From Anadara kagoshimensis (taxonomy: Eukaryota; Mollusca; Bivalvia; Arcoida; Arcidae), in assembly GCA_021292105.1 (NCBI GenBank), contig CM037870.1, positions 41,511,076-41,575,075 of the forward strand: DNA of 64,000 nt, in the 5' to 3' direction. A model generated the notes under the pieces. That model saw only the letters and a list, made by a program, of their open reading frames with translations, did no database searches and had not been told where the DNA came from. This document shows, piece after piece, positions 6,502 to 37,351 of this stretch; positions within the stretch are counted from its first letter, which is position 1, and the number at the start of each line of letters is the position of its first letter. The position numbers and the translations under genes are program-made.

Positions 6502-6507
6502 TTTATT
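6502..6507 (-). terminator. Candidate polyadenylation signal for the MIB-PARP gene
   Basis: AATAAA on the minus strand, 128 bp past the stop codon. The region is AT-rich, so chance occurrence is possible. Confidence 0.35.
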
Positions 6508-6634: not shown

Positions 6635-8759
6635 TTATTCGTATTTTATTATATATTCGGGATAACACTGATTAAAGTCAAATACACAGTAAATCCTAGG
6701 TTTTTCTGTATAATCTACGACTGAGTCATAATTATCCGGCGGTTTCTTCAGTTCTGGATCCCCAAACGTCACCCTACCGGCTAATACCTTGGCCAAAATT
6801 ATATGTCGATAACCCTGGTCATCCGGGGAACAATAAGTATCCGATAAGCACGGACTTGTAGCAAAATATACACCTTTACCATGCATAGTACCAACGTTTT
6901 CACCGGCTAATCTGAAATCAAAGTTTTCCTCACAAATTCTTTTTACAACCTCTGGTTTTGTTCCATGGAATAAACTGACCTCGTTCTCGTTACCCCTGCC
7001 AAGTTTATTTTCAAAAGCTTTCTTCTTTCTGAAAAGAGAGAAAGGAGACATTTGAAGTTGATCGAGTGTGTAATGACTAGATCTATACCAAAAAACTACT
7101 TATTACGAGCTTTACTGACTACAATGTAGCTATCATATTTAGATATTTTTATATTTTTTTGGTTTATTTATTTACATGTATTTAATTATTTTTAGTAAGA
7201 TTGAATCAAAACAAGTTATAACTGAAAAGAAATGTTATTATGTGATGCGCCAAAAATTGTTTCTGTGAAGTTTCATAAAAATTGTCAAATGATTTTTCGA
7301 GAAAAGTAACGGGTTGCGAGCAACCAGGTAGAGCTGAACGCTGAAAAATAGGTTGTGATTTGTTTTGTACTAGAAAGTCAACACGTGCAAGTCGCACATT
7401 TTAACCTGACACCCCGTGTAACGACAAACTTGGCAAGAATAGGAACCTTTGGCTAATTGTCCTTTATGTTATTAACCCCCTTTTCTCCGAATGTCCCATC
7501 AATGATGTAATCTATGACTATCGCCGTACACTAACTTACAAGTGACAATAAATTTTTTAGAATCAAATCTAACAGATTTTGCTAAAATAAACTCGTATGC
7601 ATATAATGATATCAATGCTTTAAATGAAAACACATGTACAAAAAGATAATGTTGAATAATAGGTGCCAGTACAAACAAGAGGAACCAAGAACACGGCACA
7701 ACAAACAAGAAACACGGGATAAACGACTCAAAGGAAACATCTTTGATACTTTTAATCCCTTGGTAACTACAGAATCCTTTACAGATAGAATATTCCCAAG
7801 AGACGATCTCGCTTTTTCCATCACAAACAATGGTATAATAATAACCACAGAAATCTTTACAAATATAATATTCCTACATTTCCATCACAAACAATGGTAT
7901 AATAAAGAAGTATTATTTCAATCATCATTTCATTTCACGTTCTATAGAAATTCAATAAAGAAAATCCTTTAAACACGAACATTAATGGGACTTAATAAGC
8001 ATTTACAATTAGTTGTTATTGTCTGTCCTTTAAAGACTATCTAAGGATTATGTATTTCTTTCAATGTGTATCTGATAGATAACATCATGCACTTAGCATA
8101 TTGATAAATCAAAAAATAAAAATAATAAAAGTGTTTTGTAAATGATAGCAATGCGGATTGGCAAACAACATTGACCTGTCCGCTTGACCCTTCATTAGGG
8201 ATATCAATATATAGGATGATCCACCATGTAGATGGGTAGTGTTAGAATTCACAGTTCATACATACATACATACACAATGCACATGATTTGTATTTCTTAT
8301 TAGGGAGACGAAAGAAGTGCTTGTGTTCCCTATTGATACATATACTCGTCCTTAATAAATATTTTAATCAAAGGTCAAGCAGACAGGTCACTGTTGTTTG
8401 TCTTATAATATGTATCATTTATCTGATTCCTATACCGGTATAGATTAATGGTTTTAGTCCAAGATTAAAGTATTGATATTGGTATAAAATCAGACCTATG
8501 TGATTAATAAACTCGGATTTACATTGAAATATATGGCCAATTATGATATAATGTCTTGTATCTTTATGTTTTAAAAAGCTCTTGATAGTCACCCAGGGCG
8601 ATTTCATTGATGTGTTTTTCATATTCTGCTTGCTTATGTACAGGGGTCATTGCCATTAAACAATACCCTTACCAATTGCCTTTCGTGTAATATACTGATG
8701 ATACGCAGTGGGGATTTAAAGGGGGGTTGCGGGGGTTGCAACCCCCCCTTGAAAAATTT

Positions 8760-8820
<61 letters not shown>

Positions 8821-9751
8821 AGAGATGACCCCCATATGTTAAAACAAAATTATTTTCTTGCCCCCCCCCCCCCCCCCCATCGGGGCTCTGCCCTAGACCC
8901 CTCGTCTCTGGAAGCACCTAGCATTGATATAATTTTCAACCCCCTGTTTCGAAAAATCCTGGATCCGCCCTTGATATGTGTGTTAGATGATTCACTATTA
9001 TATCAAATGTCTTAGCCCGAGTTTTATTCGGTGGTCTCATTGACATCTTGTGGTGAATGTCAAGTTCAGTACAAGCTTAGTTGCTGAATGGTTAAGATAT
9101 GGGTAGCTAATGGCTGAAAAGCTGCCGAATGACATACTAGTAGATAGCAGCTACCATAACGCCGTTCAAATATAGCTAACGTTGATTGTGCCAATTTGAT
9201 ACTACTGTAAACGTATTATTTTCGCGGTGTATTAATTTTCGCGTATTTCACGGTTGTTTGTTTTGCGCGAACATTATTACCGAGCGAAAATTATATTATA
9301 CTTATTGTGTGTTATAGTATATATTAAATCGAAAATTAAACCTAGGCGGATATGTCTAAATTTCAGATACCTCGAAAATAGATACACGCGGCAGTAAATA
9401 CGTAATTCGTTAGCCTAGTTTTAAACTTTCGTCAGGCCTATACAGTACCTACTTATTCAGCTGGTAATTTCTACAGGCTTTGAACTAATTACTTACACAG
9501 CATAAAGTTCCCACAAGTACTTGTTTTGTACTCGTATTATTTCTTGGACCTTTCTTTCCTTCCTTTTTGGAAAACCTTTTAGTAGTGTTTCTTCAACGTG
9601 TTTGTACTCTGTCTTCTCAATCGGATCTGCTTTGTTGAGAGACACAAATAGTAACGGTTTTCCTGCCATGTCACTCCAGTGAAGAGGTAGGTATATTCCT
9701 CCACCAGCACCTGTCTTCTCCTGCTTTCTTTCTTTAGATGTTTTCCACAAC
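6635..9751 (-). CDS. Exons 17-18: PARP/ARTD catalytic domain (H-Y-I type)
   Basis: Exon 17 (9751-9497) carries the N-terminal half, YLPLHWSDM...EYKHVEETLLKGFP...IIRVQNKYLWELY, close in style to PARP14/15-like domains. Exon 18 (7028-6635) carries LFHGTK (His846), GKGVYFA (Tyr879), the LAKVLAGRVTFGD strand and PRIYCVFDFNQCYPEY, which aligns Ile937 with Glu988 of PARP1. An H-Y-I triad is typical of mono-ADP-ribosyltransferases rather than polymer-forming enzymes. The domain runs to the stop with no tail. Exon 16 ends in phase 2 and exon 17 starts with the completing base, so ankyrin and PARP parts share one frame. Confidence 0.88.
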
Positions 9752-12700
9752 CTGGTTAGATAATAAGGTGTCTTGTATTTAGGATAAAAGTATATAATGT
9801 GATCTAGTGGTCATCCAGAAAAATGAGCACTAGACCTCCCGGTATTATTGGGTTATTGGAACTGTTCAGTCAAGATACAGCGGGTTACATAGTCTGACGT
9901 GACACCGTGAGTAACAACTATACATGATACATAGCAGAGAGTTTTGGAAGTGATTTTACAAGCTATTTTACAAGTTTATACATACATACATACATACGCA
10001 CGCGCGCGCGTGTGTGTTTGTGAATTATAAGATAGATTTAAATTTAAATTAAATTAAATTAAAACAAACAATACAGGAACAAACAAGTTTAATATGGATA
10101 AAACTGTGTTCTCTTTGATTTGAAAGATTTTTTAACAAAGAAATTTTATCTTCAATGTTTTATATAATTGTCTCAAGTTATTTATTCTTCAAGTAGTTAA
10201 TGAAATATATATATATGAAGCAGATGTAATACCAGTAAAATAGTACAATTAAATAAAAAGCACTTGTACTTCACAAGACTACAAGACACATTAAGAACAT
10301 GTAACACGTAGCTTTTAAAGTAAAAAGCAAATATTTTAAAACTGCTAACTGAAATTGATCAGTCATTGGGTAAAATAACATCTGATGTTTCAAATTTATA
10401 ATGCAAATATTATTTTTGATCCTGTCGGTTACGTTATTTAATCATAAATACTAAAGATCTATATGGGAACTTTATTTAATCATACCTTTGTAAATACGCT
10501 CTAGATACTTGTGGCGCTATATCCAGTGGTGACTTCTTAACTTTGTTTAAAACTTTTAAGCTGGCTCCATGTTCAACCAAAATACATGCGATGTTCGCCC
10601 AGTTGTTATCCGTATCAGAAAAGCCTGGACTCTGAAATAAAAATGTAGTGTTTAGAAATCACCAATCAGAAACGATAAGTGGTATACCATTTGTCTGTAC
10701 CACACACCACTATATAAGAATACCGTTGGCTCCTCGTAACTATATTTCGTCAGCTGATTTCTATCTTTCAGCAGGTCTTTTGCCAAAAGATTTTCATATC
10801 TCGGTCACTCGACAACCGGATGTCGACTCTTTTTCCGTTAGCACACTTTCGACAGTATTAAGTTTTATTATTTGTTGTATAAAAGTTCCAAACTAGCACA
10901 GCAGTGTTGTATATTTACATGTATAAACAAACTTACATCACTACAAATATTAAAACACAATTTATTGCCTATAAACTTTATGCCAACTAATACATAAACC
11001 CCATACAGTACCCCCATACATTCTATTACACATACTACGTAATGCAATGTTAATATGACGTCATATACAAATAACCAAATTTAGCACCAACATAAAGACA
11101 AAGGTCAAGTCAACCGGTGTTACATAAAAATGTTACCAAAATTAAATGTTCGTATTATATTTCCGTGATTACAGCACTTGTTTTATAAGCATTTTATTTT
11201 ATGGTATACATAATAACAGACATTGGTATGCGACAGATCATAGCAACGTGAATTGGGTTTCATGTGTACACATATTACGGTTTTTTTTTTTACAAAAAAC
11301 CCGTTTAAAATCGAAATTGAGCATGAAATTTAACATGGAACTTCAGAGCGTCCAGGGTAATTTTGGATACAGACACTATACTTTTCCACAATATTGTGAT
11401 GACGGCCATAAAACTTTTTGATGGCCTCTATTAGCCTCGACTTGCAATATCCCTAGTTAACAACTTATTTTTAAGCAGTTTTTCTTCGTTGTATAAAGTT
11501 CTAAATTATCTACAATCTTACCGTTTGAAGGATTTGGGTAGCATGTAAAGGAGTGTTGCCATCTTTGTCCTGAACATCAACTTTCGCTCCTGAAATAATT
11601 ATACTATTATAGAATTGCGGTTAGGCTTCTGACATATTGATAATCTTCATAATTATCGTACAATTATTATATGATAGACGCTTTTATTGCAAGTTATTGG
11701 TGTAATCAAATTGGGAGTGTCTGACATTGTTTGGTACAACTATAGATTGGATATAATACAATATGTTATGTAAAACAAAGCACCTGTCAATTACAGATCT
11801 GTACGTTTATAAAGTGATGGGTTTAACTGTGTGCCCATTACAGTGATGACCTTATACAATGTATATTGCAACAACTAGGTTTCGAATATAAAGTCCATTT
11901 AAAACTCTTTTTCCACAAAATTTGTTTTAAATAGGTTGGTTTTTGAAAAAAATTCTCAGGAGCAAAATGTAAATTTTGGCTGCCGTGAATGGAAACATAG
12001 AACAACTATATATATGGTCAATAACAAGTTAAGAAACACAGCAAAACAAATGACACCGTTCTAATAAACAAAAACAACATACCATTCTCTAAGAGAAACT
12101 CAGCCATAGGTAAGTGTCCCGCTTTTACTGCTAGATGTAATGGTGTCTGTTGTAAACCATCTAATGAGTTGATGTCAGCTTTACCCTTAATATAAATATA
12201 TATACACATTTAGTATGATTAAAAACAAACATAGCAGTCTATATCCAAATCACAATCCCAAAAGCGAAGTAAACACTTTGAAAACTAGCAAACAAACCCA
12301 CGCACGCAAACTCGAAGGGAAAAGGGGCTCGGTGCTCTGAAAATTGTTTCAATAAAGCCAACAACGCGACAAAAGTTGTCTGTTACTTGTTTGGATTTGG
12401 AATAAATTTGCCTACGTCACCAAGTTTACATTTTCTGAATATATTTTGCCATACATATTACTCCATACTTGCTGCTTGTTTAAAAGAAATTTGTCTCATA
12501 CTTTAAAATTTACTGAATGAGTTGCTCTTATACGATCCCACACAGATACAGAGCTTTTCTACTACCAAGATAATGCTGATTCAATTTCTATTTTAATGTT
12601 AATCATTTTGTATATGTAATTGAACGAAATACTAGTACATAGTTTCAGAAAAAAAGTTTGATGAACAAAAACCATAAAAATACCAATATTATAATCTAAA

Positions 12701-14931
12701 GAGCTCACCAACTCCGATTTTATTGGAGATGTTCATCTTATCAATCAATATTTATATAAGCATATATCAGATTACCACTTAGAACAACTGTATATGAACA
12801 TGGATAATTGCTTTTGGTTTATTAACTGGTGACGTCATTTCATTATTACAGAGTTATTTTTAGAATGAATATTTCTTATCTAAAAAGTTACATCTTTGTT
12901 CCTAACAGATTCCAGCGTAAAGCCATGGGAGCAATTTCACCAAAATATTCTGGTAGATAAGTGCTATTACTATTTTAGACTATTTAAACCATGTTTTATT
13001 GTCTATATAATTTGTTTTGTTTATTTTAGTGTTCACTATCTGTGAGGCCGTTCTCCATCTTTTCGAACATTAAACTATTGACAAGGGGTTTGATTGAATA
13101 TAATTTTGCAGCACCAGACAGTCGTTTTGGAATTAAATTTATCATCAGCATTGCTCGGGCCAAAATTGTGGAAATTCATATATATTTAATATGATGAAAT
13201 GAGAAAAATAGAACGAACAGCATGTAAACTACCAAATCCACCTCAGGCAATGCTTTATATAGCACAGTTACACTATTGGTGTTGAAGCAAACCTACCTTC
13301 TTTACTAATATTCTCATTATGTCCCTGAGGTCATTATCTGCCGCAATGTGGCAGGCAGTATAGCAACCCTTAGACTCAGACATATGTCGATTTACCATTG
13401 ATGTATCTCTGCTTAATATCATGTCTACAGCACTGAAACGAGAATAAAATTAAAACTTAACGTACTCTGGTTTTGTTAAAATTATTTGTATAAATCAAAG
13501 TCAATGTCTGCGTCCAACGAAAAACCAATTTCTGTTTTGAAAGCATTGAGGTTATCTAATCAACTGAACATTTAATGTAATAAGATGATTCCGATAATGT
13601 TTATTTTTAGACTTCCCTGGTGGAAGTTTGCCAGTTTGCAAAGATTTAATTTCGCTTTGGAATTGTGATTTGGATATAAACCAATGTGGGTTTTTTTATG
13701 TACAGACAAGAATTATCTTCCGACAAAAAATACATGTAAATACCTTTTTGTTATTTATCATCAAATATAACCACAGAGTCCTGTTTTTATACATTTTACA
13801 AATCAATGAACAATATACTACACAAAAATCGTAACATCACAGCCTTATTTTTATAGTCAATAGTCAGTTGCAGCTACCTATAGTTTGCGATGTCTGGATA
13901 TCAAGATCTATCAAATAATGTCCGCTTTTCTAGGTCAACAAGTAGGACCAGAAGTACTGTCATAGTGAAACAAAACCCATATAACACTTACATTTGACAC
14001 TTTTTGATACAAGCCCACTGAAGCATGTCAAAACCATCTGCATTTTCTGTCTCAAATTTTATTTTTGTTTTTGCCTTCAGTATCTGTTTGACAGCATGTG
14101 GTTGTTCATTGCTTATTGCGTCATGTACAGCAGTGCCACCACTAGGACTCTGAAACATATCAATTGCTTTTATGCAATGTCTTTAGAATTAATTCACTTG
14201 ATATCATTTTGTTATTGTGACCGATCTTCTAAAGAAGAACGTTTAAAAATTTGCTGCTTTAACTTTTTATGTCCTGTCTTTAGTCTTATTCCAGAGTTTT
14301 TAATTGTTCCAGTTTTTGTAGTACATAAGACATTTCAGAGAGCGGAGTACAGGGTATCGACTGATAATCTTGTTGTGCGATCAATGTACATTATCTCAAT
14401 CGAGATTAGCACTTCATGAAAGAATTGCATTTTGTACCATCCAGAATAAATCATACTACATTTTATTATACCTCATTAGAAAAATACGATGCTATCTGTA
14501 ATTTGATTTGATCGTTGGATCATGTGATCAGGGTGGAGAAAACATCGTGTATCCCTCTGAAAACATCATATCCCACCTCTTCGGAACACACCATGACGTC
14601 ACAATTATATGACGTCAACGATGGAGAATCGGTCACGACGTTCTAGCGTTTGCCCCCGATGTGTTCCGATAGGAGAAAAAGGCAATGAATCGGAAAAGGG
14701 TGATGTTTTTAGGTTGTCTTTTTTGAATATTTTTCTTTCTGTCTGTCTTTCTTATTGCAATGGTTATCTTTCGCCCGAGGGAAATGTGACTTGTTCAGGG
14801 TGAACAAATGTTCATATCTCCCTCACTCAAAGGCAATAAATGTATACTATTCTATTCAAAAGCTCATAAATTGCTGAGCATTTAGCATTACAGTAGGTCT
14901 AACTGGTAGCAAGTACAAATGCAGCGTGTGT

Positions 14932-14975
<44 letters not shown>

Positions 14976-14982
14976 TGAGGAA

Positions 14983-15019
<37 letters not shown>

Positions 15020-18000
15020 ACCTTCACATGTAAATCAGCACCAGCTTCTACTAAATGACGTACACATTCCGGTCTGTTTTCAATCACGGCCAGATGCAAG
15101 GGAGTTATTCCTTTTTTATTCTTCACCTCAATATTTGCTTTGTTTACAATTAACAGCTTTTCAACTGTAGCCTTGTGACTGAAAAAAATAAGTTTCAGAG
15201 TCTGAAATCAAATTCTACTCACCAGTGTTTTCATCTTAAAGTATCATTTTAGTATTAAAAATAATTAAAGAAATGTTCGTTTCATGGGTTTACTACATGT
15301 ATAGTAATTACGTTTTGTTACGAGAAGCTGCAGGAGGACCAAAGTCAATTAGGAACAGAAGAAAAACAGTCTGGTTTCATAAGCTAGAATATCGCCAAAA
15401 CAGCTGCAGCAACAAAGGAGAAAGTCACTAATTTATAAGAAAGACAGCTGGAAAGCCTTATATATATGCGGGTTTTTAAGGTAATCGTTATAGTAGATGT
15501 GCCATTTGTTTAAGGTGTTTTGAAATCGCATTTAAGAAACGAAAAAATGAATTATGTACATAGTGCAAATTTAAACAAGGTGAGATATGTAGATAAACCA
15601 TCATTTACCTTTTCTTTTTATTACTAGTAATTTCTTTTTTTCAATTAATTTTCTATTTATTTTACTTACTTTTTTACACATATATGGAGAGGTGTGTTTC
15701 CGTCTTTATCTGGTTTATCGATGTCAGCTTTAGCTTCAATTAGACATTTCACGATAGGTTCATGTCCTTTCTGACAAGCTACTTGTATAGCGGTCACTCC
15801 GTCTTCCTCTACATTTACCTGTATATATTTATAACATGTGTCGTGGATGCTTGATTTGTGTGCTATTTTGTTAATAGATTTAATGGATTTATTCTGATTA
15901 CAAAATATCAACATAAAAAATATAAAAATGAATGATTCTAATAATGGTGTAGTATAAAATGGGCATCCAGTTAGGCAATACAAAATAATAGCAAGAAACA
16001 AGACAACAGTGCCATCTTTAGAGGTGCTAATATTTGATAAAAATAATCATATTTAGTCTAAAACATACTTTTTTAAATCATTAGTTTTATAGGTCGCCCG
16101 CGATATGATGACAGAGTGTTTGTTTATAAACAGGGAGGGTTATATTATTAAAATAACGCATTTATATATAGGCAAACAACTTTGACCTGTCCGCTTGACC
16201 TTTCATTTAAATATTTATCACGGGCCAAGTACATCTGTGTATAGGGAACACATGTGTTTATTCTGTATACATCATGAGATATACTTACTTCATAAAGTAA
16301 ACCTGTGTACTGTGTATGTATTAACTTGGATATTAACAATACCCATTTAATTGGATGGGCCCTCCTATATGAATATTCCTAATGAAAGGTCAAACGGACA
16401 GGCCAATGTTGTTTACCTTTATACTCTATGAGGTGAGTATATCTCATGATGTATACAAAATAAACACCTTTGCTCCCTATAGACGATTCTATTTTTCGAT
16501 ACAAGTGGAGTTATCTTTCTTTATAACTAGAGGGCGCTATTACGTCAGCCATTACAAGACTGATTCAGTCATTGTTTACAGTAGCGACGTAATATATACA
16601 TGTGTGTAAATCGAAACTTAATTGTAACTCTTAGCAAGTTAATTTCATTGTTAAAATGCCTTACGTATCTGGAGGAGGAAAACGCTGTGTTATCGTAGGT
16701 TGTCACAACAACCAAAAGAAGATCTACGAATGGAAAAAACGAAGAGGAGGCGCTGTCAGCATATGTTGCATGTTGATTAAAAATTAAAAAAAAATAATAA
16801 TAATAAAGTAAATCAAGATCACATTTGTTGTAATTTTTAATGTCTTGAGTTCAGAAATGCTTGTTTACACACTTGTTAAGATTATTTCACTTTTTACTCA
16901 TCATGTTACTTACAAATGTATATAAAAATTGCTGCTGAAAAAAACATGTACCGTTATTTGACAAAAGAACCGGGAGCAAAATTTCTTGACTTGACCGGGG
17001 TTCAACCCATGGACTGTCACTCTCAAGACGTTCAAGAAGTAATTGGCCTGATCGACTTCTCATATGCTAAGAATTTGAGATTCTTTATTCAAATTGAACA
17101 ATAACATCATAAAGACTATCTAGAAGAGTATTTAGCATCTTCAATCAGATTATAATATAAAAAAGTTAAAAAACTAAATATATGATTATGTACAAAATTT
17201 CTTGTATTCATCACAGAGGATAAACCTTCCCGCCTGAAAATCATCCACTAAACGGACAAGCATATGTTTAAAGTAAAATGATCTTACTCTGGGTAAGAGT
17301 TGATTGATGAATTCCTCATCATAATTCACATCAATTGTGACATGTTTCATGGGATCAGATTTCCATACAAAAAACTTGCATTTTATTATATTGGTGCAGT
17401 GCATTTGCATCTGAACCTTGTGATAATAACCTTTTTCTCTCCTTTTTGTTAATTTCACAACCCTGTTGTGTTTTTATTATGTCATAGTTCTTCGAATCGC
17501 TGGTCAATTCACTAATTGGTTTTAATGGGCATTTTATCTCCAACAATGTTTCGTTTGAAACAATTCCATCTGGACTTGCAGATCGGAGAGAAATGTTTAT
17601 GTACAACTGTGCCAATGGTATTTACAGTGCAGTTGTGAACATTTTTATTTTGGTTCTGATGATTTTCCGTGTTACTGGCAGTGTTTCACTTGAATCGAGT
17701 GTACAAATGATTATTAACCAATTCTTTTTTAATATCGAATGTAGCCCCGGAGCATGTTCTTATAAATTATATTCCCTACAGGCAGCGCCTGTGATGTACT
17801 GTGTATATTTCAACACCTATCAAATGTTATCGGATATATTTTTAATTAAATTTAATTATATAATTAATGCATTCCAATCATTGATTACCCTTTGCTGACT
17901 TACAATGTCCCGGAAGTCTACTTTCGGTTTTACTTTTCCAACAGTGTTAAACACTTAAATCTGATAATAGGGATTAGTACTACATATACATTGATGTTTA

Positions 18001-20539
18001 TCAGTCATCATATCGAAATCTTTATTTCTAAATAAAATGCGACGAATGCTAATTAGAAAAAACAAACTGTATGAAAACACTATCGATGTTTAATAGGAAT
18101 CAGTCTTGTAATGGCGGACGGTCACGTGGTTTCAAGATGGATGCGCCCATTGATTTGACGATAGAAACGTCTTAGATGAACTTGGTCCGAGATAAATATT
18201 TAAATGAAAGGTCAAGCGGACAGGTCAAAGTTGTTTACCTATAGCTGAATATAGTGAATAGAAAAATATATAACCACGTTTTGCAGAATTTACTTTGACC
18301 ACCTATAAACAAAGTTTTGGAGAAAAGTGGAATAATAAATTTTTAAGGCACAGTAAAAAATCTTTTACTTATATCGAAGCCGTAAGTTCATTGCTGATGG
18401 AGGAAATCGGAGTGTCAGGAGAAAACCGCCTGTCTTCGTCAAGGAAACCGGAGTGTCAGGATAAAACCGCCTGCCTTCGTCAAGCAAACTCACAAAGATA
18501 TAATTTTAATTGAAAGTAAAATTTTAAAATAAAAACCTTGATATTATAGTGCAGTTAATTTATATTATTTTAAGCATTTTTACAAAGAACATTTCAGACG
18601 CTCTCCATTTGGAAAATTAAATAAAAGGTATTACCACAGTCGGATTTTCCCTGACGTAATCTTGTACAAGAGCCACATCTCCTCCTAAAACCAGAATTAT
18701 AAGCGATTTTTTAGGCTTGACAGTTTCCTGTCTTCGGTCTGGCTCAAATACTGTAAAAATAAAACGAAACATGAAATATACTGGATGCAGGATAATGCTA
18801 TAAAGAATTCAAGTTTAAATTAGTCGACATCGATAGTCAAGGTAAAACTTCAAAGCGAAAGCGAAGAAGTGCGTTTAAAACAGGAATGATAGGTGAAAAA
18901 TCATAGGCAAAGTGAGGGCTCATTTCATACAATGATTACTGTGAAACATAACATTGTTTTTTTTGGCCTTATCCGACAAACTCAAAAATGTCCAAAACAT
19001 GCAGTACGGGCCTGTCGAAAGTTTAACACTCAAGCTAACGAATAAGTGCCGAATCGGAATAGCATATGTTAGCAATATCGGCAGATTTTCAGCAGCAACT
19101 ACCTACCTCTTGACAGCTTTTTTAATCACCAGCTATCCATATATCTGCCACTTGGCTGCCAAGTATTGATGCCTTTTCGTTAGCTCTATGTTAAACTTTC
19201 GACAGCCATGTACTGTACTCTGGACAAAAACATGCGACTATAGACTTTGGAATGTTCACGACAAATTCACTTAACCAGTCCAAACTCATAAATTGAAACC
19301 AGTGAGTAATTAGTTAAATTAACTACACATTCCACCTTTGACAGAATGTGTGAAAAAAGAGGAAAGAGATGTAGAAATAAACCAATTAAGGAATTAATCT
19401 ATATTGCTAGTAAGTTATAAATTACAATTATTCAGATTAGGAATCTTAAGACTAACTGTCATGACGGAAATTTGTGGGGATAAACAAATCATTAAATAGT
19501 GAGACTTACTGAATTAAGTTGTATAAGTATTAATTTGTTTTAATGATGTTTTTAAACATTGGTGCTATAAAAATAGAAATGTTTTTGATGCCGTTAATGC
19601 TTGACAAAAATAGAATTGTTTTACCTCAGTTATGACGCTCACGAAAGGGTATACATGTATTTGAAACTGTATGACAAAAATAACTTCAATTTTTCTATTG
19701 TAAACTTCCTTTCCTTTTGTATGCAGAAATAATCCTGCATCTCCTGCTTATGGTGTATTTTTTCACAATTAATACGCTATGGTAGAGCTTACTTTATACA
19801 ACGAAGCAAGCTGCTTACATATAAATTGTTGACGCAAAGATATTGCAAATCTAGGCTTATCAAGGTCCTCAAATAGTTTTATGGCCATCATCGCAATATG
19901 GTTGATACGTGTGTTGTCTCAATCGAAAATTATCTTGTTTGATTACACACATAACGGGTGAAGCTAGGTAGACAGGAGGTGCTTACACTTCCGGAGCAAC
20001 CGGCCTTACTTCCTTGGTTGAAGTTCAGATGTGTTACTTAATTTGCCGCTTTCAAAATTTTATTTTGCTTTGTGAATGTGGTTTGGACATGGATTGGTAT
20101 GTTTTTTTTTTGTTATAATGTAAAGACGATTTGGTGTTTTTGTTCAATTGCATTTGATGTTCCAGATGTTTGATAAACGTTGATTAATTGCATTTGGCCA
20201 CTTAATTTATGACAACAGTAGAATTGTGTTATAAATGTCTTTTTGATGTAAAGACGATTTCCCCGAATTTCTTACATTTCTTTTTATGTAGATTCTCTGG
20301 CAGTGGTGGGGCCTTTTCTGTTGTCTTGATATTGCCTTCATCAACACTCTCTAGACATACTGGACTAAATAAATATTGTTTTCCATCAATATGAACAGAT
20401 ACATCCCCATCATCGTCAACATGTACTACTCGTCCTAGCTTTCCTAAAGTCTGAAAAACAAAACATAAAATGTTATACATACTAAGATATATGATATGAA
20501 AGCAATGTGGATTGATAGAAAATGCAAGGTCAAGATCAA

Positions 20540-20588
<49 letters not shown>

Positions 20589-23500
20589 ATTTTGCAATTG
20601 ATCTGTGGACACTATTAGCTCTGTTACGCCTAAGTCAACGTTGTGGAGACAAAACTCGCGTCCCCAGGCATATATACGGTAGGTTATTTTTAATTTTTAC
20701 TCTATTTCAAAGCCGTAGGGTTGGCTTATATGGAGATTTTTTACATTTTCTTAACTTGCCAATTTGCCCCACATTGCAAGTAACTGAACGTGTTTGGAGG
20801 GGCTATTATGAGGCTCCAACAAACCAACCCCACTACATTTACATTTGTATTATATATGTGTATGAATTAATAAAATTCTAAAGTAAGGATTAGTATTTTG
20901 TGCTTTGGTGAACACTATACCTGATTGTAATTATCAGACCAGCCACCATGACCTTGCTGTAAAGCTGAAACCTTTGCCTTATCACCAAACACACGGACTA
21001 AATCACCTTTCTGAAACGTATGTACCTAGTTTGATGGAAATAAAACTAATATTTTACTCAGAGCATTTGGAAAACAAATTGCTCATAAACATATTTATTT
21101 TTGACAATATTCATATTGCAATTTATTGTACACTATACACCGATCTAAATACCATTTGTATTTATTTTAACGTACATGTAACACTGTGTTATGTTTAAGT
21201 GGTCGATAAAAAATTATTATCACACGCAATAGACATCTGGCATTTAATTTTGTGTTCGTTTTTTATACGTGATAGGTGTCTTCAGCTCGAACGATTGATT
21301 CGCTCTCGTTTATCAGGATGGCAATTTGCAATCAAAAGAAGAAGAAGAATGCGAATACAAAACCAAACGTTTTGAATAATCTCTAATGAAGTAAATCATA
21401 GCACAGGAATAAAATTTGGGAGTCAGTTGCAGAAACATTTACATGAAAAATCAGAAAATTGCGTTAAAATAGAAGAAAGAGGTTTGTAACTTGACAAGCA
21501 ACTAAGAGCACAATACATTATAAGAACAGATAATTACATGTTATATCAGCCAAATAAAAAAAGAATGGCAAAACATACTTGAAAGATCAGAAACTCGCGG
21601 TAAAATAGAAGAAATCGATTTGTAACTTGACAACGTAATTGAGCACAAGGGCACAATACATTATAAGAACTGATAATTACATGTTGTCTCAGCCAAAACA
21701 GTAATGGAAAAAACATACTGGGAACAGTATAGTGGTTATGTTTATATTCGGAAAAACCGAGGCCATTCTACTTTATTAATTGTAGTTACTGTAGTTACCT
21801 AAACTTTTACTCACCTTTGTCAGACACAAGTAGTTCAAGGAGTACATGTTACCATCTTGGTACTGGACTCTTACAAGTCCTGCTACTATGATTTGTACCA
21901 CCGTTCCAGTCTGTGCTAAACACTGAAACAAAATTGATTACTTTTATACAAAATTGAATTTTCAATAGCTAAGGTGTAGTCGTGAATTAAAATCAACAAC
22001 TTTAAATCTATAATTTCAAATTGATCATAGGTTTGACTCCAATAAGTCACTTAACCCACAATTTGTTTAGGAAATTCATTTGCAAACAAATAGAACAATT
22101 TTGAAAGATAAAATGAATGTGTTTAAAGTGAAATTTTCTTTCATAAAACTAAAACCGCCAATATCATCACACATTCAAATATATTGTTCTATCTATATTA
22201 GTTTCGAATCCAAAACAGAGTTGCATGACAAATATAATACTTTCGTCATAACATCCGCAAATACATTTGAATAAAATGCTTTGACAATTTTAAGTTGTCA
22301 AGATTCATTGGCATAAAATTTCATCGTAATTTTGAATGCAATACATGTCACATTGTTCATCAAAATTGTCTGATTCTTGGTTCGAGCAATACTGATGAGG
22401 AATTCGATTTCGAAACGACCATCTAGTGCTGTGCTGCAAAATTAAAACGGTTTGTGATAATTACTACATTTAATGTAATGTTTAGTGTCTTTATGTGCAT
22501 TTTGTTAAGAATGGTTACCTGACTCATGGCGTCACTCCATACTCCATCCGACAACTTTTGTATATTTTTCATCTGACTCTGTGTAAGATGAACTTGTACT
22601 TTGTCACCAATGGTCAGCTCGGCCTTCTTTATGCAATCAAGATCTAAATTCAAAACGAAATATATGACATTGTATAGCCAAAACGGTAACAAAGAAACCC
22701 AAACCGAAGAACAAGACGTAACAAACAAACGTAATCAAGAAACCAAGACCAGGACCATTCGTTCGAAGCTTGATTAGTTTAATCAACTGATTAGTTTAAA
22801 ATTAGAATTTTAAATAATCGCATTTATGTTGTGAAATTAATATTGAAAATTTTGAAATTGAACATTATTTCACCAATCTAATTAAGCACATCATTAGAAA
22901 ACTATTGACTTGATAATGGTATGGTGATTTTATTTGATGTTTTTAATTTCTGTCAATCAGTGATTAAACTAATCAAACTTCGAACGACTGAGTCCAGATA
23001 AACGCATATGGAGGCCACTAATAAGTACTTGTCTACTTAACCTAATAAAAATGATTCAGTGGCTTGGTTCATGAACATATGGAGGAGCCAAGTGAACCTA
23101 TTTTAGCCGAAGTATTGAACATAGGAAAAGCAACCCATCTAGAGTTCATTCTTTCTTTCCGTTTGATACATTATGACCGAAAAAAACGACAATCCAATAC
23201 AATCATATATAATCAATGTTACTACAGCAATATGTTGACATAGAATGACATCCTTGCCTTTAGTATAAGTTTCCCTGAAAGCATTTATCTATTTCACACC
23301 TTATGCATGGATATCCACTTTTATTAAAGAAATAATTCAATCAAAAGGATTCATTTTCTGTTTGCGTGGATTTATGGGAGATAAACTTAATTTTTTGTCA
23401 CCTCGCGCAATTTAAACGTTACAATATTACAAGTGCTTGTAGTTCACAAACTAAACAATATAAAATCGATTCCTTTATAACATTAGTTGCTGATACTGGC

Positions 23501-26500
23501 GTCAGTAGTATTAATTGCGATACAGTCACAAGTCTGTCGAAAGTTTAACACAAAGCTAATGAACTATTGTCGAATCGACAGCTCATCTCGTCAGCTATAT
23601 CTCGACAGCTTTTTAGCAGCTGTTATCTGTCTCTCGGCAGCTTTTTGGTCACTGGCTAACCATATATCGGTCACTCGACAGACGAGCTTCGATTCCTTGC
23701 CGTTAACTCGGTGTTAAACTTTTAACAGGTCTGTATATCTAATAGACCCGATAAAATTGGATTAACTTTCGTGTTTTTTATGCAAAAGAATTTTCTACAG
23801 GTGTTGTATACAACTGTGGAGAAAGAAATGAAAGAACACCAATCAACTTGGGGAGAACTGGTGAAGATGGCACAAGACAGAGACAAGTGGAAAACTGTAG
23901 TCCTTGCCCTATGTGTCCCCGGGCATAAAAAGGACTAGGTAGGTAGGTAATTGTATACAAAAGACAATTAAAACATTATAGCATACCGACAACTGGTAGA
24001 TGTTGTTTGTAGTATTTATATCCGTCACCAGCTTTAGTGTATAACAGATCTACTCTTCCCTCTGCACCTAGTCTATATGTCTCTACGTTCTTCTGTTTAC
24101 TCCATTTTACACGAGCAGCACTTCGCTGTGTTGTCGAACTCCAATCACAGATTTCATCAATAATTCCCTCGGACCCATCACCGCCTGGTAAAATGAAGAA
24201 GGAAAATACAGGTATGATGTCCTTGCCAATAGCTACACCAACCACATAGAAATAATAAAGATACATTTCTATTTTCAAGAAAAATTAAAGAAAAGAGGTA
24301 ACACGAAAATATCAAGAATCATGTTTTTATGAACATGAAATTGTTCCAAATTGTAAATGCTGTCAACCCATGTCGTAAGATGAAATAAGACAAAATGTAT
24401 TTGTGATTGCAAATAAATTGAAACTTGAATTTTAAATTGTTAAATTGGAACTGCAAGAACTGTTTTTAACCTCTAGATATCTTCTGTCATGTGATGTATC
24501 AAAAATATAACTTATGAATTTCATTTAAATTTTCATTTCAGCTCAGTTGAGTGAAACAATATATTTCGCTTTTATGCAGTTGTATTTTAATATATATAAA
24601 ACCTTATCGTCATTCGTGGGAATATTTACCATCGGTGTTCCGCCATTCCCAGTGTGGTCCTCTAGTAACTTGTGCTTTTGGAAAAAGACCTTTTGCTAGA
24701 CAAACCATATCCTTTGAACTATTTCTTGAAGGAAGTTTGACGCTGTAGTAAAACAGTAAACTTATGTAAAATTCAAAATTATACATAACACTCGTTGATC
24801 TTTAAGATTTGATATATGTTTAAATGTGTCGCATGTTTCGCACAAAATGGAAAATTCCATTTCTTAATCTTAATCTTAAAACATTTCCTAATCTTTATCC
24901 AAAAAATAGAGCTGTCTCTGGGGAGCCAAATACCCCCGACCCCAATATTTAATGTTTTCCGCGACCTTGACCTTTCCATATGACATTAGTTCAAGGTCAT
25001 GACACACCGTTCGGCCATGGAGATAATTCATGTGAAGTTTTATGACAGCCGTCCAGAGCAATTATGAGATATGGCCAGACATACTTTCACGGGGACCTAG
25101 ACCTTTCCAATATGACATCACCTATATCCAAAATCACAGCCTGTTGTTTATATGAGCTAATAATGTTTTGATTTAAAATTAATCCAAGCAATTACCCATA
25201 AAATGTCGTATTTAGATAAATATTCAGTAACTAAATGCAACTACTCTATCATATTGAATAATAAATCAATCCCCAGGGATAACTGGTCATTAGTGTTGCT
25301 TATAAAAAGATATTTAACTTGATAAGCATTAAACAAAAATCAATTATTACTAAAGTATTCTTGACAATGAAAATATCTAATAGTGGAGATATAGAGATAT
25401 TGACAAGAATTAAAATTAAATCGATGATACATTTTTGACAGACATGAAACATACAGTCCAACCTGTCTTAAAGGCCACCTCTATATACGGGTCACCTGCT
25501 TTTAAAGGCTAGTAAAATTGTATCCCAATTGTTCTTTATTTGTATTATTTGAACCTGTATAAAAAGACCACCTGCCCATAAGGTCACTATTACTGGTTCC
25601 CTTGGGTAGCCTTTAAAGACAGGTTTGACTGTTGCTAGTTCTGAGCTAGAAGTGAAACGTTGATTTTGAGTGTATATATAGTATGTACTTACATGCTGTG
25701 AAATGGTTGAACAACACGTCCAAATGTATGGTTGACATCATGTTTGTCCGACATGTAACATTTGGTACATAAGTTTATGTTTCCACAATCAAGACATAAC
25801 CATCGGATACCCCAGATTGTTTTAACATTACACCCACTACAGCTACAATTCGGATGGTTTACTCCTGAATTAAGAAAAAAAAACCCATAAAATCATATAA
25901 ACTACAGTATATATAAAAACTGTGAAGAACATACTTCATTTGTCCCAGGGAGTTTAGTGAATCAAAAACAAACATTTACAGTTCATATCCATAGCACAAT
26001 TCCAAAAGCGAAGAAAATTTCAAAACTGGAAAATTAGTTAAACACGTGAGCTTTCACCGGGGAAGTGAGGACGGGTGTTTTAGAAGAGCAAGCGCACACG
26101 TCACGTGTGAAATCAAAGTTGGGAATGAAAGGAACATGAAACTACATATATGTATGAGACGTCAAACATTTGAGATACACAAGAAAGTACCGGCTGTACA
26201 ATCAGACTTCACCCTTTTTTCATTGTAAAGTAATTAAAAATCTGAAGATGATATGGTTTGTTTTGAATGGATGTAATGGTAACGGTTAAATATTAAATGA
26301 CATTTGGGCACTTGCTGTCTGCGATAATCAACTAGAGATGAAACGGAACAAAATTGAATGACAAACCCATTCATCATTGTAAATAAAAAAGATACGATAT
26401 GGACTATTGCAATAAATAATTTTAGTACCTGTTTGTGCATTGTCGAACAAACACAGATCAAACGAATTATCTTTGGCTTTGTAAATCCGCTCTCGACCTG

Positions 26501-26633
26501 CGTCCCACAAAACGGAAACTGTTTTATCACCAGATTCTGATTGGTCAACAATTGTCCCGAGATGCCCTTCTCCGCCATCTTGCTCCTTGCTTGACCAATC
26601 AGGTCCCCTTACTACACGAGTACCAATATACAT
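6635..26633 (-). CDS. MIB-type / ankyrin / PARP fusion protein (18 exons, 955 aa)
   Basis: Exons read on the minus strand: 26633-26429, 25864-25693, 24742-24630, 24184-23987, 22643-22519, 21922-21815, 21010-20921, 20450-20276, 18750-18635, 15818-15670, 15178-15022, 14149-13992, 13432-13297, 12185-12083, 11589-11522, 10631-10486, 9751-9497, 7028-6635. Every junction has AG/GT boundaries and phases join without a stop (2868 nt). The order is MIB_HERC2 (about 3-68), ZZ finger (70-118), second MIB_HERC2 (143-215), MIB REP modules (230-395), ankyrin array (about 408-740), PARP catalytic domain (about 757-955). Residues 1-740 are colinear with mind bomb E3 ligases, which then carry RING fingers; none is visible here. 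By family knowledge the front half would bind substrates and the end would transfer ADP-ribose from NAD+. An in-frame stop at 26658-26660 supports the ATG at 26633. The exon model is inferred; the individual domains are clear. Confidence 0.85.
8161..8402. mobile_element. Inverted-repeat element (family B), 242 bp
   Basis: Ends GCAAACAACATTGACCTGTC and GACAGGTCACTGTTGTTTG are inverted repeats of about 35 bp, the same termini as the 2.1-kb element at 16.2-18.2 kb. Confidence 0.75.
8706..8960. repeat. Dispersed repeat holding (GA)n and a C18 run
   Basis: GGGGGTTGCAACCCCCCC, (GA)n at 8762-8825, a poly-C tract at 8861-8878, then CGGGGCTCTGCCC and TCCTGGATCCGCCC. The two spurious RE/SL-repeat ORFs here come from the microsatellite. 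Confidence 0.75.
9202..9397. mobile_element. MITE-like element with TIR CTACTGTAAACG, copy 2
   Basis: Left TIR intact (CTACTGTAAACG), right TIR degraded (CACGCGGCAGTAAA). The interior matches the copy at 6136-6336. Confidence 0.65.
9981..10020. repeat. (CATA)n/(CG)n/(TG)n compound microsatellite
   Basis: CATACATACATACATACG followed by CACGCGCGCGCG and TGTGTG. Confidence 0.9.
10486..18750 (-). CDS. Exons 9-16: MIB-like ankyrin repeat array
   Basis: Exons 18750-18635, 15818-15670, 15178-15022, 14149-13992, 13432-13297, 12185-12083, 11589-11522 and 10631-10486 encode about eight to nine ankyrin repeats. Clear examples are DGNTPLHICVKK, KGITPLHLAVIENRP, GGTAVHDAISNEQ, LQQTPLHLAVKAGHLPMAEF and DKDGNTPLHATQILQT. 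The final partial repeat (NKVKKSPLDIAPQ) matches the last ankyrin unit before the RINGs in MIB1/2, so the array is complete in the mind bomb sense. Intron 9, between 18635 and 15818, holds the 2.1-kb inverted-repeat element. Ankyrin arrays bind protein partners; none can be inferred here. Confidence 0.88.
11310..11455 (-). repeat. Dispersed repeat family A, 3' part, minus orientation
   Basis: GTCCAGGGTAATTTTGGATAC and ATTGTGATGACGGCCATAAA match the minus-oriented copy near 47.7 kb. Confidence 0.6.
14934..15018. repeat. (GA)n microsatellite touching the exon 11 donor of MIB-PARP
   Basis: Imperfect GA run ending three bases from the donor at 15021/15020. The transcript reads GTAACTCTCTCTCTC immediately after the exon. 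Confidence 0.9.
16656..16787 (+). pseudogene. Truncated THAP-like ORF (43 aa) inside the inverted-repeat element
   Basis: It reads MPYVSGGGKRCVIVGCHNNQ, then KKIYEWKK and a stop soon after. The C-x4-C near the start followed by NNQKK.. is the pattern of THAP domains in transposon proteins. Later zinc ligands are not kept in frame. Confidence 0.45.
17186..17615 (-). pseudogene. Decayed YqaJ-like exonuclease domain fragment
   Basis: Two overlapping minus frames carry pieces of one domain. The first (17615-17355) has ASPDGIV and LLEIKCPLKP, the catalytic Asp and E-x-K of the YqaJ/lambda-exonuclease nuclease fold. The second (17458-17186) has GYYHKVQMQMHCT, CKFFVW and YDEEFINQLLP, the following helix and strand. 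A frameshift near 17460 separates them. Such genes are carried by DNA elements in many invertebrates. It is not intact. Confidence 0.65.
18380..18490 (-). mobile_element. SINE core fragment, internally duplicated
   Basis: Two tandem copies of a 48-bp unit (CCGGAGTGTCAGGA...CGCCTG..TTCGTCAAG). On the minus strand this reads GGCGGTTTTCTCCTGACACTCCG, close to the core of the SINE at 28.7 kb. Confidence 0.4.
19009..19207. mobile_element. MITE (family I) with TIR CTGTCGAAAGTTTAACA
   Basis: Left CCTGTCGAAAGTTTAACAC and right ATGTTAAACTTTCGACAG are inverted repeats; AAGCTAACGAA and TTCGTTAGCT extend the pairing. Related copies lie at 23528-23736, 10738-10866 and (reversed) 59420-59545. Confidence 0.75.
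19755..20110 (+). repeat. Dispersed repeat family A, copy at 19.8 kb
   Basis: Colinear with 4035-4390: AATACGCTATGGT, TTATACAACGAAGCAAG, TTTTATGGCCATCATCGC, AGACAGGAGGTGCTTAC, TTCCGGAGCAACCGGCC, ending in ACATGGATTGGTATG. Confidence 0.75.
20276..22643 (-). CDS. Exons 5-8: MIB REP (SH3-like) modules
   Basis: Exons 22643-22519, 21922-21815, 21010-20921 and 20450-20276 encode two copies of the MIB repeat: ELTIGDKVQVHLTQSQ...GVWSDAMSQ with QTGTVVQIIVAGLVRVQYQDG, then KGDLVRVFGDK...GHGGWSDNYNQ with TLGKLGRVVHVDDDGDVSVH. The GHGGW..(A/N) and LG.(V/L)G.V signatures match the two REP units of mind bomb proteins. The last exon ends in a proline/lysine-rich linker (EKAPPLPENLHKKK). Junctions are phase 0 up to exon 8, which ends in phase 1. 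Confidence 0.87.
20543..20584. repeat. (AG)n microsatellite
   Basis: Uninterrupted AG dinucleotides in MIB-PARP intron 7, near exon 8. Confidence 0.97.
22385..22430 (+). ncRNA. Hammerhead ribozyme-like motif, copy 1
   Basis: GCAATA, core CTGATGA (22392-22398), stem II GGAAT/ATTTC with loop TCG, intact GAAAC (22412-22416), ATC at the cleavage triplet, then TAGTGC. Stem I has one mismatch. It is the only copy keeping both CTGATGA and GAAAC with a stem II. It lies in MIB-PARP intron 5, antisense to the gene. Confidence 0.6.
22759..22988. mobile_element. MITE (family H) with ~30-bp TIR
   Basis: Left TCGTTCGAAGCTTGATTAG and right CTAATCAAACTTCGAACGA are inverted repeats, with pairing continuing through TTTAATCA and CTGATT. 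AT-rich interior, no coding. Confidence 0.75.
23528..23736. mobile_element. MITE (family I), second copy
   Basis: CTGTCGAAAGTTTAACAC at the left and GGTGTTAAACTTTTAACAG at the right, with TCTCGACAGC blocks inside, as in the copy at 19 kb. Confidence 0.7.
23801..23938 (+). pseudogene. C-terminal end of a non-LTR retrotransposon reverse transcriptase
   Basis: Frame from 23801 to the TAG at 23936-23938 ends STWGELVKMAQDRDKWK then TVVLALC, the usual C-terminal signature of RTE/CR1-type ORF2 proteins. A GTAGGTAGGTAA-like tail follows. It lies 48 bp from exon 4 of the MIB-PARP gene, on the opposite strand: a 5'-truncated LINE insertion. Confidence 0.6.
23987..26633 (-). CDS. Exons 1-4: MIB_HERC2, ZZ zinc finger, second MIB_HERC2
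   Basis: Exon 1 (26633-26429) begins MYIGTRVVRGPDW and continues EQDGGEGHLGTI, the MIB_HERC2 signature, close to mind bomb 1/2. Exon 2 (25864-25693) has paired cysteines CSGC, CLDC and CTKC followed by HDVNH, the ZZ finger that follows the first MIB_HERC2 in MIB proteins, with the conserved WGIRW stretch. Exon 3 (24742-24630) starts the second MIB_HERC2 (VTRGPHWEWRNTDG) and exon 4 (24184-23987) completes it (GGDGSEGIIDEICDW). In mind bomb proteins these modules bind the tails of Notch ligands; whether this protein does so is not known. Exon phases are 1, 2, 1, 1. Confidence 0.9.
25452..25633. mobile_element. MITE (family C) with TIR ACAGTC.AACCTGTCTTTAAAGG
   Basis: ACAGTCCAACCTGTCTTAAAGG at the left mirrors CCTTTAAAGACAGGTTTGAC at the right. 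The interior has ACCTGCTTTTAAAGG and TTCCCTTGGG. Other copies: 28917-29290 (interrupted) and 63310-63497. Confidence 0.8.
25975..26170 (-). repeat. Dispersed repeat family A, minus orientation
   Basis: CACAATTCCAAAAGCGAAG, GTTAAACACGTGAGCTTTC, GGGAATGAAAGGAACATG match other reversed copies (43.6, 47.6, 59.6 kb). Confidence 0.6.
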
Positions 26634-26780: not shown

Positions 26781-27510
26781 AATAACATACGTGGCGAGTG
26801 TTGCTGGCTAAACAGGAGGCGGTTACCCGTCCGGAGCACCTGGCCTCACTTCCCTGATAAAAGCTCACGTGTTTCAACTAATTTGGCAGCTTCAAAGTTT
26901 TTACTTTGCTTTGGGTTTGTAGTTTGGACGTGGATGGATTGGTATGTTTGTTTTTACTTTGCTTTTGGATTGTGGTTTTGACATGGATGGATTGGTATGT
27001 TTGTTTGTTTTCACTTTCCTTTGGAATTGCGGTTTGGACATGGATGGATTGGTATGTTTGTTTTTACTTTGCTTTTGGATTGTGGTTTTGACATAAATGG
27101 ATTGGTATGTTTATTTGTTTTCACTTTCCTTTGGGATTGCGGTTTGGACATGGATGGATTGGTATGTTTGTTTTAACTTTCCTTTGGGGTTGCGGGTTGG
27201 ACATGGATGGATTGGTATGTTTGTTTTACTTTGCTTTGGGATTGTGGTTTAGATATGGATGGGTTGGTATGTTTGTTTTACTTTGCTTTGGGATCGTGTT
27301 TTGGACATGGATGGATTGGTATGTTTGTTTTCACTTTCCTTTGGGGTTGCGGTTTAGACATGGATGGATTGGTATGCTTGTTTTCACTTTCCTTTGGGGT
27401 TGCGGTTTAGACATGGATGGATTGGTATGTTTGTTTTCACTTTCCTTTGGGATTGCGGTTTGGACATGGATGGATTGGTATGCCTTTGGGATTGCGGTCT
27501 GGACATGTTT
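26781..27510 (+). repeat. Family A copy whose 3' end expanded into a ~60-bp minisatellite
   Basis: From 26795 it reads as family A (AACAGGAGGCGGTTACC, CCGGAGCACCTGGCCTC). From about 26895 the terminal piece (ACATGGATGGATTGGTATG, TTTGTTTTCACTTTCC, TTTGGGATTGCGGTTTGG) repeats about ten times. Several frames stay open and give spurious MDWYVCF repeats. Confidence 0.85.

Positions 27511-29945: not shown

Positions 29946-37351
<7,406 letters not shown>

Follow-up and report, generated by a model that had tools for sequence, protein, structure and literature searches.

Mind bomb proteins are recognized by an MZM module (MIB_HERC2-ZZ-MIB_HERC2), a REP region, a MIB-type ankyrin domain and C-terminal RING fingers. 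In the available part of one report, the MZM domain of MIB2 is needed for RIPK1 binding, and RING mutants bind yet no longer act (PMC5912950); reader and writer are therefore separable in the MIB family. Enzymes of the PARP12/PARP13 type are built as CCCH-WWE-PARP, and tankyrases carry ankyrin repeats, a SAM domain and then a C-terminal PARP domain; the available part of a 2023 account gives tankyrases as the only human PARPs with ankyrin clusters (PMC10450202). Here we describe MIB-PARP B, a gene of Anadara kagoshimensis that joins the MZM, REP and ankyrin parts of a Mind bomb protein to a PARP catalytic domain. It lies in a 64,000-nt stretch of DNA (the window; C14:41,511,076-41,575,075 of the 1.115-Gb assembly, C14 being contig CM037870.1), and the positions given for it are those of the window. 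We consider it probable that MIB-PARP B is a functional gene, derived from a MIB2-like gene whose RINGs were swapped for PARP12-like catalytic exons, and that its product would bind proteins through the MIB modules and mono-ADP-ribosylate them.

The gene occupies 26633..6635 on the minus strand. A sequence-only reading had chained eighteen exons in frame, and when these were cut out, joined and translated the chain held: all 17 introns are GT-AG, their phases are compatible, and the only stop lies at the end of the frame, giving 955 aa with exon 7 as first drawn. One border was amended. Shifting the exon 7 acceptor 15 nt upstream, from 21010 to 21025, adds VHTFQ in frame and makes the product 960 aa; since VHTFQ is present in the Tegillarca relative P0006 and fits a MIB2 exon border, 21025 is most likely the start of the exon. 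Both acceptors are in frame and thus usable, and they could give two isoforms that differ by VHTFQ in the REP region. The intron phases are, in order, 1,2,1,1,0,0,0,1,0,2,0,2,0,1,0,2,2. Chance can be excluded as the origin of this model because a homologue, P0018, is colinear with it and 46% identical over residues 2-960. The features, with the evidence for each, are:

26429..26633, minus strand: exon 1, with the start codon at 26633 and the first MIB_HERC2 (splicing, Pfam; 88% identity to Tegillarca granosa P0006 over 67 aa)
25693..25864, minus strand: exon 2, ZZ zinc finger (splicing, Pfam, MIB1 MZM-REP alignment)
24630..24742, minus strand: exon 3, start of the second MIB_HERC2 (splicing, Pfam)
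23987..24184, minus strand: exon 4, second MIB_HERC2 (splicing, Pfam)
22519..22643, minus strand: exon 5, REP, the MIB SH3 repeat (splicing, MIB1 MZM-REP alignment)
21815..21922, minus strand: exon 6, REP (splicing, MIB1 MZM-REP alignment)
20921..21025, minus strand: exon 7, REP, with the corrected acceptor (15 nt added, VHTFQ, as in P0006)
20276..20450, minus strand: exon 8, end of REP (splicing, Pfam)
18635..18750, minus strand: exon 9, start of the ankyrins (splicing, Pfam)
15670..15818, minus strand: exon 10, ankyrin (splicing, Pfam)
15022..15178, minus strand: exon 11, ankyrin (splicing, tblastn of P0001)
13992..14149, minus strand: exon 12, ankyrin (splicing, tblastn of P0001)
13297..13432, minus strand: exon 13, ankyrin (splicing; weak tblastn match of P0024, E 0.006)
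12083..12185, minus strand: exon 14, ankyrin (splicing, Pfam, tblastn of P0001)
11522..11589, minus strand: exon 15, ankyrin (splicing, Pfam)
10486..10631, minus strand: exon 16, last ankyrin, ending in phase 2 (splicing, tblastn of P0001)
9497..9751, minus strand: exon 17, linker and N-terminal part of the PARP catalytic domain, with phase-2 introns on both sides (splicing, PARP15 alignment, catalytic alignment, tblastn of P0001)
6635..7028, minus strand: exon 18, rest of the PARP catalytic domain with the H, Y and I positions, stop codon at 6635-6637 (splicing, Pfam, PARP15 alignment, catalytic alignment; 66% identity to P0001 over 131 aa)
6502..6507, minus strand: AATAAA, a candidate poly(A) signal some 130 nt past the stop codon (read by eye)

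Two further features were seen within or beside the gene. Inside intron 9, at 17189-17621 on the minus strand, two overlapping open frames carry a SPDGIV...LEIKCP motif; they had no Pfam match at E 0.01, and the motif recalls what we take to be YqaJ-type nucleases of mobile elements. Directly upstream of exon 1, a minisatellite-like array at 26880-27570 shows, by eye, repeated peptides in several open frames.

Pfam finds in MIB-PARP B two MIB_HERC2 domains, a ZZ finger, two SH3_15 domains (the MIB REP repeats), ankyrins and a PARP domain, all above curated cut-offs. ZZ is the weakest of these matches (23.3 bits vs a cut-off of 21.4), and the Ank_KRIT1 and ANK_LRRK2 models fall under their cut-offs. 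In the 955-aa product the best Ank_2 stretch covers residues 413-503 and the PARP domain residues 787-931. Residues 3-373 are colinear with the crystal structure of human MIB1 MZM-REP (4xi6, E 2.9e-78), and in the 215-aa product of exons 17 and 18, residues 19-214 align to the catalytic domain of PARP15 (E 1.7e-29, the best match) and also to those of PARP12 and PARP14. These alignments and the Pfam matches uphold the MIB_HERC2-ZZ-MIB_HERC2-REP-ankyrin-PARP order proposed from sequence. That the ankyrin domain is of MIB type is seen in the predicted fold of an Ostrea relative, which matches the MIB1 ankyrin domain (8v0e, TMt 0.89).

MIB-PARP B differs from MIB1 and MIB2 at its C-terminus, where a PARP catalytic domain stands in the place of the RING fingers. 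The Pfam scan of the product shows no RING, and when seven RING-bearing MIB proteins were used in tblastn, their RING parts had no minus-strand match in the gene at E up to 10, although very short exons could escape such a search. The matches of RING parts at E 1.7-6.6 are chance-like and fall either beyond the gene or on the plus strand, and tblastn found no RING exons in or after the gene that could take the place of exons 17 and 18. With the join also kept in relatives, the proposal that the RINGs were replaced by PARP stands. From the PARP12/PARP13 type the protein differs in having MIB modules and ankyrins instead of the CCCH fingers and WWE, neither of which was found in the Pfam scan. 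It resembles tankyrases in that ankyrin repeats are followed by a C-terminal PARP domain, but a tankyrase relative was rejected: the Pfam scan found no SAM between ankyrins and PARP, the catalytic alignment shows H-Y-I and not H-Y-E, and the tankyrase PARP match is lower (E 7e-8 vs that for PARP15). The ankyrin fold of the Ostrea relative, too, is closest to MIB1.

The same architecture is conserved in other bivalves. We ran three homologue searches, with the PARP part, the MIB part and a lungfish PARP part as queries. The first matched 15 proteins, four of which have MIB_HERC2 and PARP together; the second matched 84, with PARP also present in 12; the third matched 1,303, and two of the 120 listed have both domains. 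Pooled, the searches give at least 13 distinct database proteins with PF06701 (MIB_HERC2) and PF00644 (PARP), from Saccostrea, an oyster-like contig (P0002), Magallana (two), Crassostrea virginica, Ostrea, Pinctada, Ylistrum (two), Potamilus, Sinanodonta, the lungfish Protopterus and the lamprey Lampetra. A MIB RING (PF13920 or PF13923) is listed for none of the 13, and a rescan of eight proteins (six of the 13, P0005 and P0031) gave no RING match at E 0.01. Gastropod proteins among the matches listed (Haliotis, Lymnaea, Biomphalaria, Batillaria) do not have the combination in these searches, which were not exhaustive. We recognize here a bivalve MIB-PARP group, to which MIB-PARP B belongs, with MIB_HERC2, ZZ, REP, ankyrin and PARP in one open reading frame (ORF), 18 exons and a common phase pattern; the exon pattern was compared with that of one paralogue in the same genome, paralogue A. 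In addition, MIB_HERC2 is joined to other effectors, as judged from precomputed Pfam accessions: to PF08477 and PF16095, which we take to be Roc and COR, in Mytilus P0092, and to PF00017, presumably SH2, in thrips P0027. The MIB reader may thus have been shuffled more widely than into MIB-PARPs.

Several of these relatives are incomplete or bear on transcripts. The coelacanth protein P0031 has the MIB half but stops before a RING or a PARP could follow, and is therefore assigned to neither MIB nor MIB-PARP. The contig of P0002 measures 3,031 nt and carries an ORF of 954 aa. The partial P0005 is an ORF of 648 aa on a contig of 2,682 nt, and is 84% identical to paralogue A over residues 354-988, encoded there by exons 8-18, which cover about 15.8 kb. 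Because the two modelled MIB-PARP genes span 20 and 25 kb, the P0002 and P0005 contigs are most simply spliced cDNA in which ankyrin and PARP parts are joined. Of the outcomes that would refute the chimera, neither RING exons in the gene nor, on these two contigs, an end after the ankyrins was seen. Tegillarca granosa P0006 is close to MIB-PARP B, with 88% identity over 67 residues of exon 1 and 77% over 40% of the PARP region, in keeping with an ark clam as the source of the genome.

The sequence-only reading had also held that no protein joining a Mind bomb protein to an ADP-ribosyltransferase is described. We found no description in the literature searched (one full-text collection, by titles and abstract openings), and a survey of PARPs across life from 2014 holds, in its main text, no word beginning mib, herc2, mollus, oyster or crassostrea. 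However, the protein is not unique, given the at least 13 that share its architecture. Nine of the 13 are named MIB-type E3 ligase at source, three hypothetical protein or Poly [ADP-ribose] polymerase, and one is unnamed. Among the so-called ligases, P0001, P0018, P0022, P0035 and P0174 have the same domain set as MIB-PARP B; their name implies a ubiquitin ligase, yet RING is unlisted and PARP present. The MIB-PARP architecture is therefore already in databases, often under the name of a ligase, and is a PARP-family variant on a known ubiquitin-ligase chassis.

The chimera coexists with MIB1-like and MIB2-like genes in the same genome. A MIB1-like locus on C4 has per-exon identity of up to 93% to wasp MIB1, with matches covering residues 1-622 of the 1,058-aa query, and a MIB2-like locus at C14:33.03 Mb has up to 86% identity to Haliotis MIB2; no RING was seen between its last ankyrin exon and the end of the stretch examined. 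Paralogue A, the second MIB-PARP, lies at C14:17.47 Mb and has a near copy at 19.50 Mb. It has 18 exons, encodes 988 aa with no inner stop, and shares all 17 intron phases with MIB-PARP B. Its exon 13-15 borders were placed by hand where the automatic chain left one junction open; automatic splicing resolved 15 of the 16 tested junctions in each copy, the same junction failing in both. A gene of the PARP12/13 kind, here called the WWE-PARP gene, is found on the same chromosome as the MIB-PARPs (1.745-1.756 Mb, in C14:1745001-1757000); its WWE is above the Pfam cut-off, and a PARP12-type CCCH model below the cut-off (E 3.6e-4) marks probable CCCH fingers. Further MIB-like loci at C14:48142001-48163634 and C14:48179794-48182973 have MIB_HERC2 exons, the first also REP-like and ankyrin exons. 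Some loci are paired 0.8-2.2 Mb apart on one contig (C14 14.56/15.91, 17.47/19.50 and 48.16/50.00 Mb; also on C2 and C19), and in the 17.47/19.50 Mb pair the blocks are mostly 90-97% identical, introns too. These pairs look like uncollapsed haplotypes or recent segmental duplication.

Introns and trees point to the sources of the two halves. The MIB2-like gene and both MIB-PARPs agree in intron phase at matching exon borders from MZM through REP into the first ankyrins (among them NQD/GG and NTD/GG in phase 1 and LTK/VH in phase 0, the slash marking the intron). The WWE-PARP gene has a PARP-internal phase-2 intron at the identical site to that of the MIB-PARPs (LWxxYx/K), and PARP domains of the PARP12/PARP13 type are the nearest in trees, with the bivalve MIB-PARPs and the clam WWE-PARP gene grouped at support 100/99 and 100/96 in two taxon sets. 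In the MIB-half tree the bivalve MIB-PARPs form one clade (100/100; also in a quick tree) with two subclades, and MIB-PARP B is placed with the B group of oysters. The common MIB2 phases, the common PARP-internal intron and the PARP-tree grouping together suggest that exon shuffling joined part of a MIB2-like gene to part of a PARP12-like one to give MIB-PARP. In this reading the RING exons of the MIB2-like gene would have been replaced by the two catalytic exons of the PARP12-like gene, through recombination in introns.

The supposed breakpoint itself is less clear. Read by hand, the MIB2-like post-ankyrin intron is in phase 2, as is the intron that precedes the PARP exons of both MIB-PARPs. 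For the WWE-PARP intron before PARP, phase 2 is the likeliest of several options, a choice made by hand (donor 6998, 6/9 consensus positions; acceptor 8464, 14/20 pyrimidines), and if it is right, a MIB2 intron would have been joined to a PARP intron in frame. However, the automatic choice for this intron was phase 0, with poor sites (3/9; 3/20), and a phase-1 pair with good sites (7/9; 14/20) is also possible and would truncate the WWE exon at its end. The phase match at the breakpoint is thus not proven. Exon shuffling also fits less well with the position of the MIB2 post-ankyrin intron, about seven residues downstream of its MIB-PARP counterpart, and with the MIB2-like gene lacking intron 14 of the MIB-PARPs; one MIB2 ankyrin exon was not located.

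The lamprey and lungfish proteins raise the question of one origin or two. A single fusion in an early bilaterian, passed on to bivalves and vertebrates and lost in other lineages, is a reading that we take seriously without expecting it to be right. It would explain the equal domain order and the same two partner families in both groups, and for the MIB half the approximately unbiased (AU) test does not reject one bivalve and vertebrate clade (p-AU 0.31, with the coelacanth P0031 counted in). For the PARP half, a clade of all MIB-PARPs without the clam WWE-PARP gene is only nearly rejected with the first taxon set (p-AU 0.064). With the second set, which includes both PARP exons of the WWE-PARP gene, the same clade is rejected (p-AU 0.005), but in the best tree from that set a branch (83/79) sets all MIB-PARPs and the clam WWE-PARP gene apart from the rest, a pattern compatible with a single fusion if the WWE-PARP gene got its PARP part from a MIB-PARP. 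Also against a single fusion, the vertebrate MIB halves stand beside frog MIB2 (87/94), and the spacing from ankyrins to PARP, by eye, is about 75-100 residues in lamprey and lungfish vs about 25 in bivalves. With the second set the test does not reject a grouping of the vertebrate MIB-PARPs with vertebrate PARP12 either (p 0.23). Two separate origins are weakly favored.

The catalytic site bears on what the product would do. In an alignment of 15 MIB-PARPs, including MIB-PARP B and the partial P0005, the NAD-site His and Tyr are present in all 15, which places MIB-PARP B, with its PF00644 match, in the PARP/ARTD superfamily. The third catalytic position, in the column that we take to answer to Glu988 of PARP1, is Ile in 12, Val in three and Glu in none; with this Glu replaced (H-Y-I type), the MIB-PARP B sequence falls in the mono-ADP-ribosyltransferase subset. 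I, V or L at this position is usual in active mono-ADP-ribosyltransferases, and mono-ADP-ribosylation is therefore predicted: a MIB-PARP product would make mono- rather than poly-ADP-ribose. We propose, given the separable reader and writer of MIB2, that MIB-PARP would bind proteins via its Mind bomb MZM, REP and ankyrin modules, its clients being MIB-type or diverged, and would attach single ADP-ribose units, not ubiquitin, to these clients or to itself.

It is unlikely, in our view, that the PARP fold is instead kept as an NAD- or protein-binding scaffold, making the protein a competitor of MIB1 and MIB2. The never-Glu third position would allow for such a pseudo-enzyme, and some PARPs of the subset without that Glu, such as PARP13, lack activity, but the same residues are common in active enzymes and the His and Tyr are retained throughout. 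Moreover, the PARP exons are among the best-conserved parts of MIB-PARP B, ranking first in three of six comparisons: with P0018 and P0004 (both 53%, other parts 40-50%) and with paralogue A (49%, others 37-45%). In favor of a competitor, a MIB protein whose RING does not work can still bind, as the available part of the MIB2 report describes for RING mutants and RIPK1 (PMC5912950).

That two neighbors were misjoined, a MIB2 paralogue truncated behind its ankyrins and an independent PARP gene beginning with exon 17, is very improbable and was rejected: the model rests on genomic DNA, the introns flanking exon 17 measure 734 nt and 2,468 nt and the Tegillarca model stops in exon 17, but the identical join recurs in paralogue A, which has as many exons and equal phases, in the at least 13 database proteins and on the cDNA-sized contigs P0002 and P0005, and in the open frame of exon 17 the PARP part (LPLHW) is not preceded by a Met.

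Some observations weigh against a functional MIB-PARP with the proposed activity. MIB-PARP B is known from genomic DNA and not from its own transcripts, and the cDNA status of P0002 and P0005 rests on contig size and source label, not on reads. Tegillarca P0006 ends after exon 17, so exon 18 is not shown in that species, and the model also lacks ZZ and other parts. In the other three conservation comparisons (P0024, P0022, P0035) MZM ranks above PARP. In favor of the proposal, an AlphaFold2 model of the Ostrea relative reaches a mean predicted local distance difference test score (pLDDT) of 84.8, with PARP blocks at 64-92, and among solved structures it is most like MIB1 MZM-REP and the ankyrin domain of MIB1. 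Its predicted template modelling score (pTM), on the other hand, is 0.43, so single domains are predicted but not their arrangement. A PARP domain is absent among the 50 PDB fold matches listed for this model, so the PARP fold rests on sequence. A viral fold search with the model listed mostly ankyrin-repeat proteins.

The rest of the window holds other ORFs. One at 29946-31619 on the plus strand has NIT, HNOBA and guanylate cyclase domains (Pfam), and a similar-looking ORF lies on the minus strand at 41345-42895. A single-exon ORF of 613 aa at 44419-46260 on the plus strand gives the impression, perhaps, of a coiled coil and beta-propeller as in TRIM/NHL genes.

A functional MIB-PARP, with the reader of a Mind bomb protein and the writer of a PARP, could have a role in innate immune or cell-death signaling. 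In the available parts of two reports, MIB2 is among genes linked with resistance against Pacific oyster mortality syndrome (PMC10491289) and is up-regulated in stimulated mussel haemocytes (PMC7773633). Because database names call MIB-PARPs ligases, confusion of "MIB2" with MIB-PARP is possible, and bivalve-immunity reports of "MIB2" may in part concern an ADP-ribosyltransferase. A broader and more tentative idea, on which we would not rely, is that on at least two occasions, one in bivalves and one in early vertebrates, a MIB2-type ligase was turned into an ADP-ribosyl writer by exchange of its RINGs for a PARP12-type catalytic domain, so that its client list (for example RIPK1-like or NF-kappaB pathway proteins) would have been re-addressed from ubiquitin to mono-ADP-ribose in innate immunity. 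If MIB-PARP acts as proposed, nature would here have exchanged one post-translational modification for another, with one kind of substrate reader and two writers. Given that a MIB1-like gene, a MIB2-like gene and two MIB-PARP genes are found in one animal, whether the reader or the writer sets the target list is a question that could be tested there.

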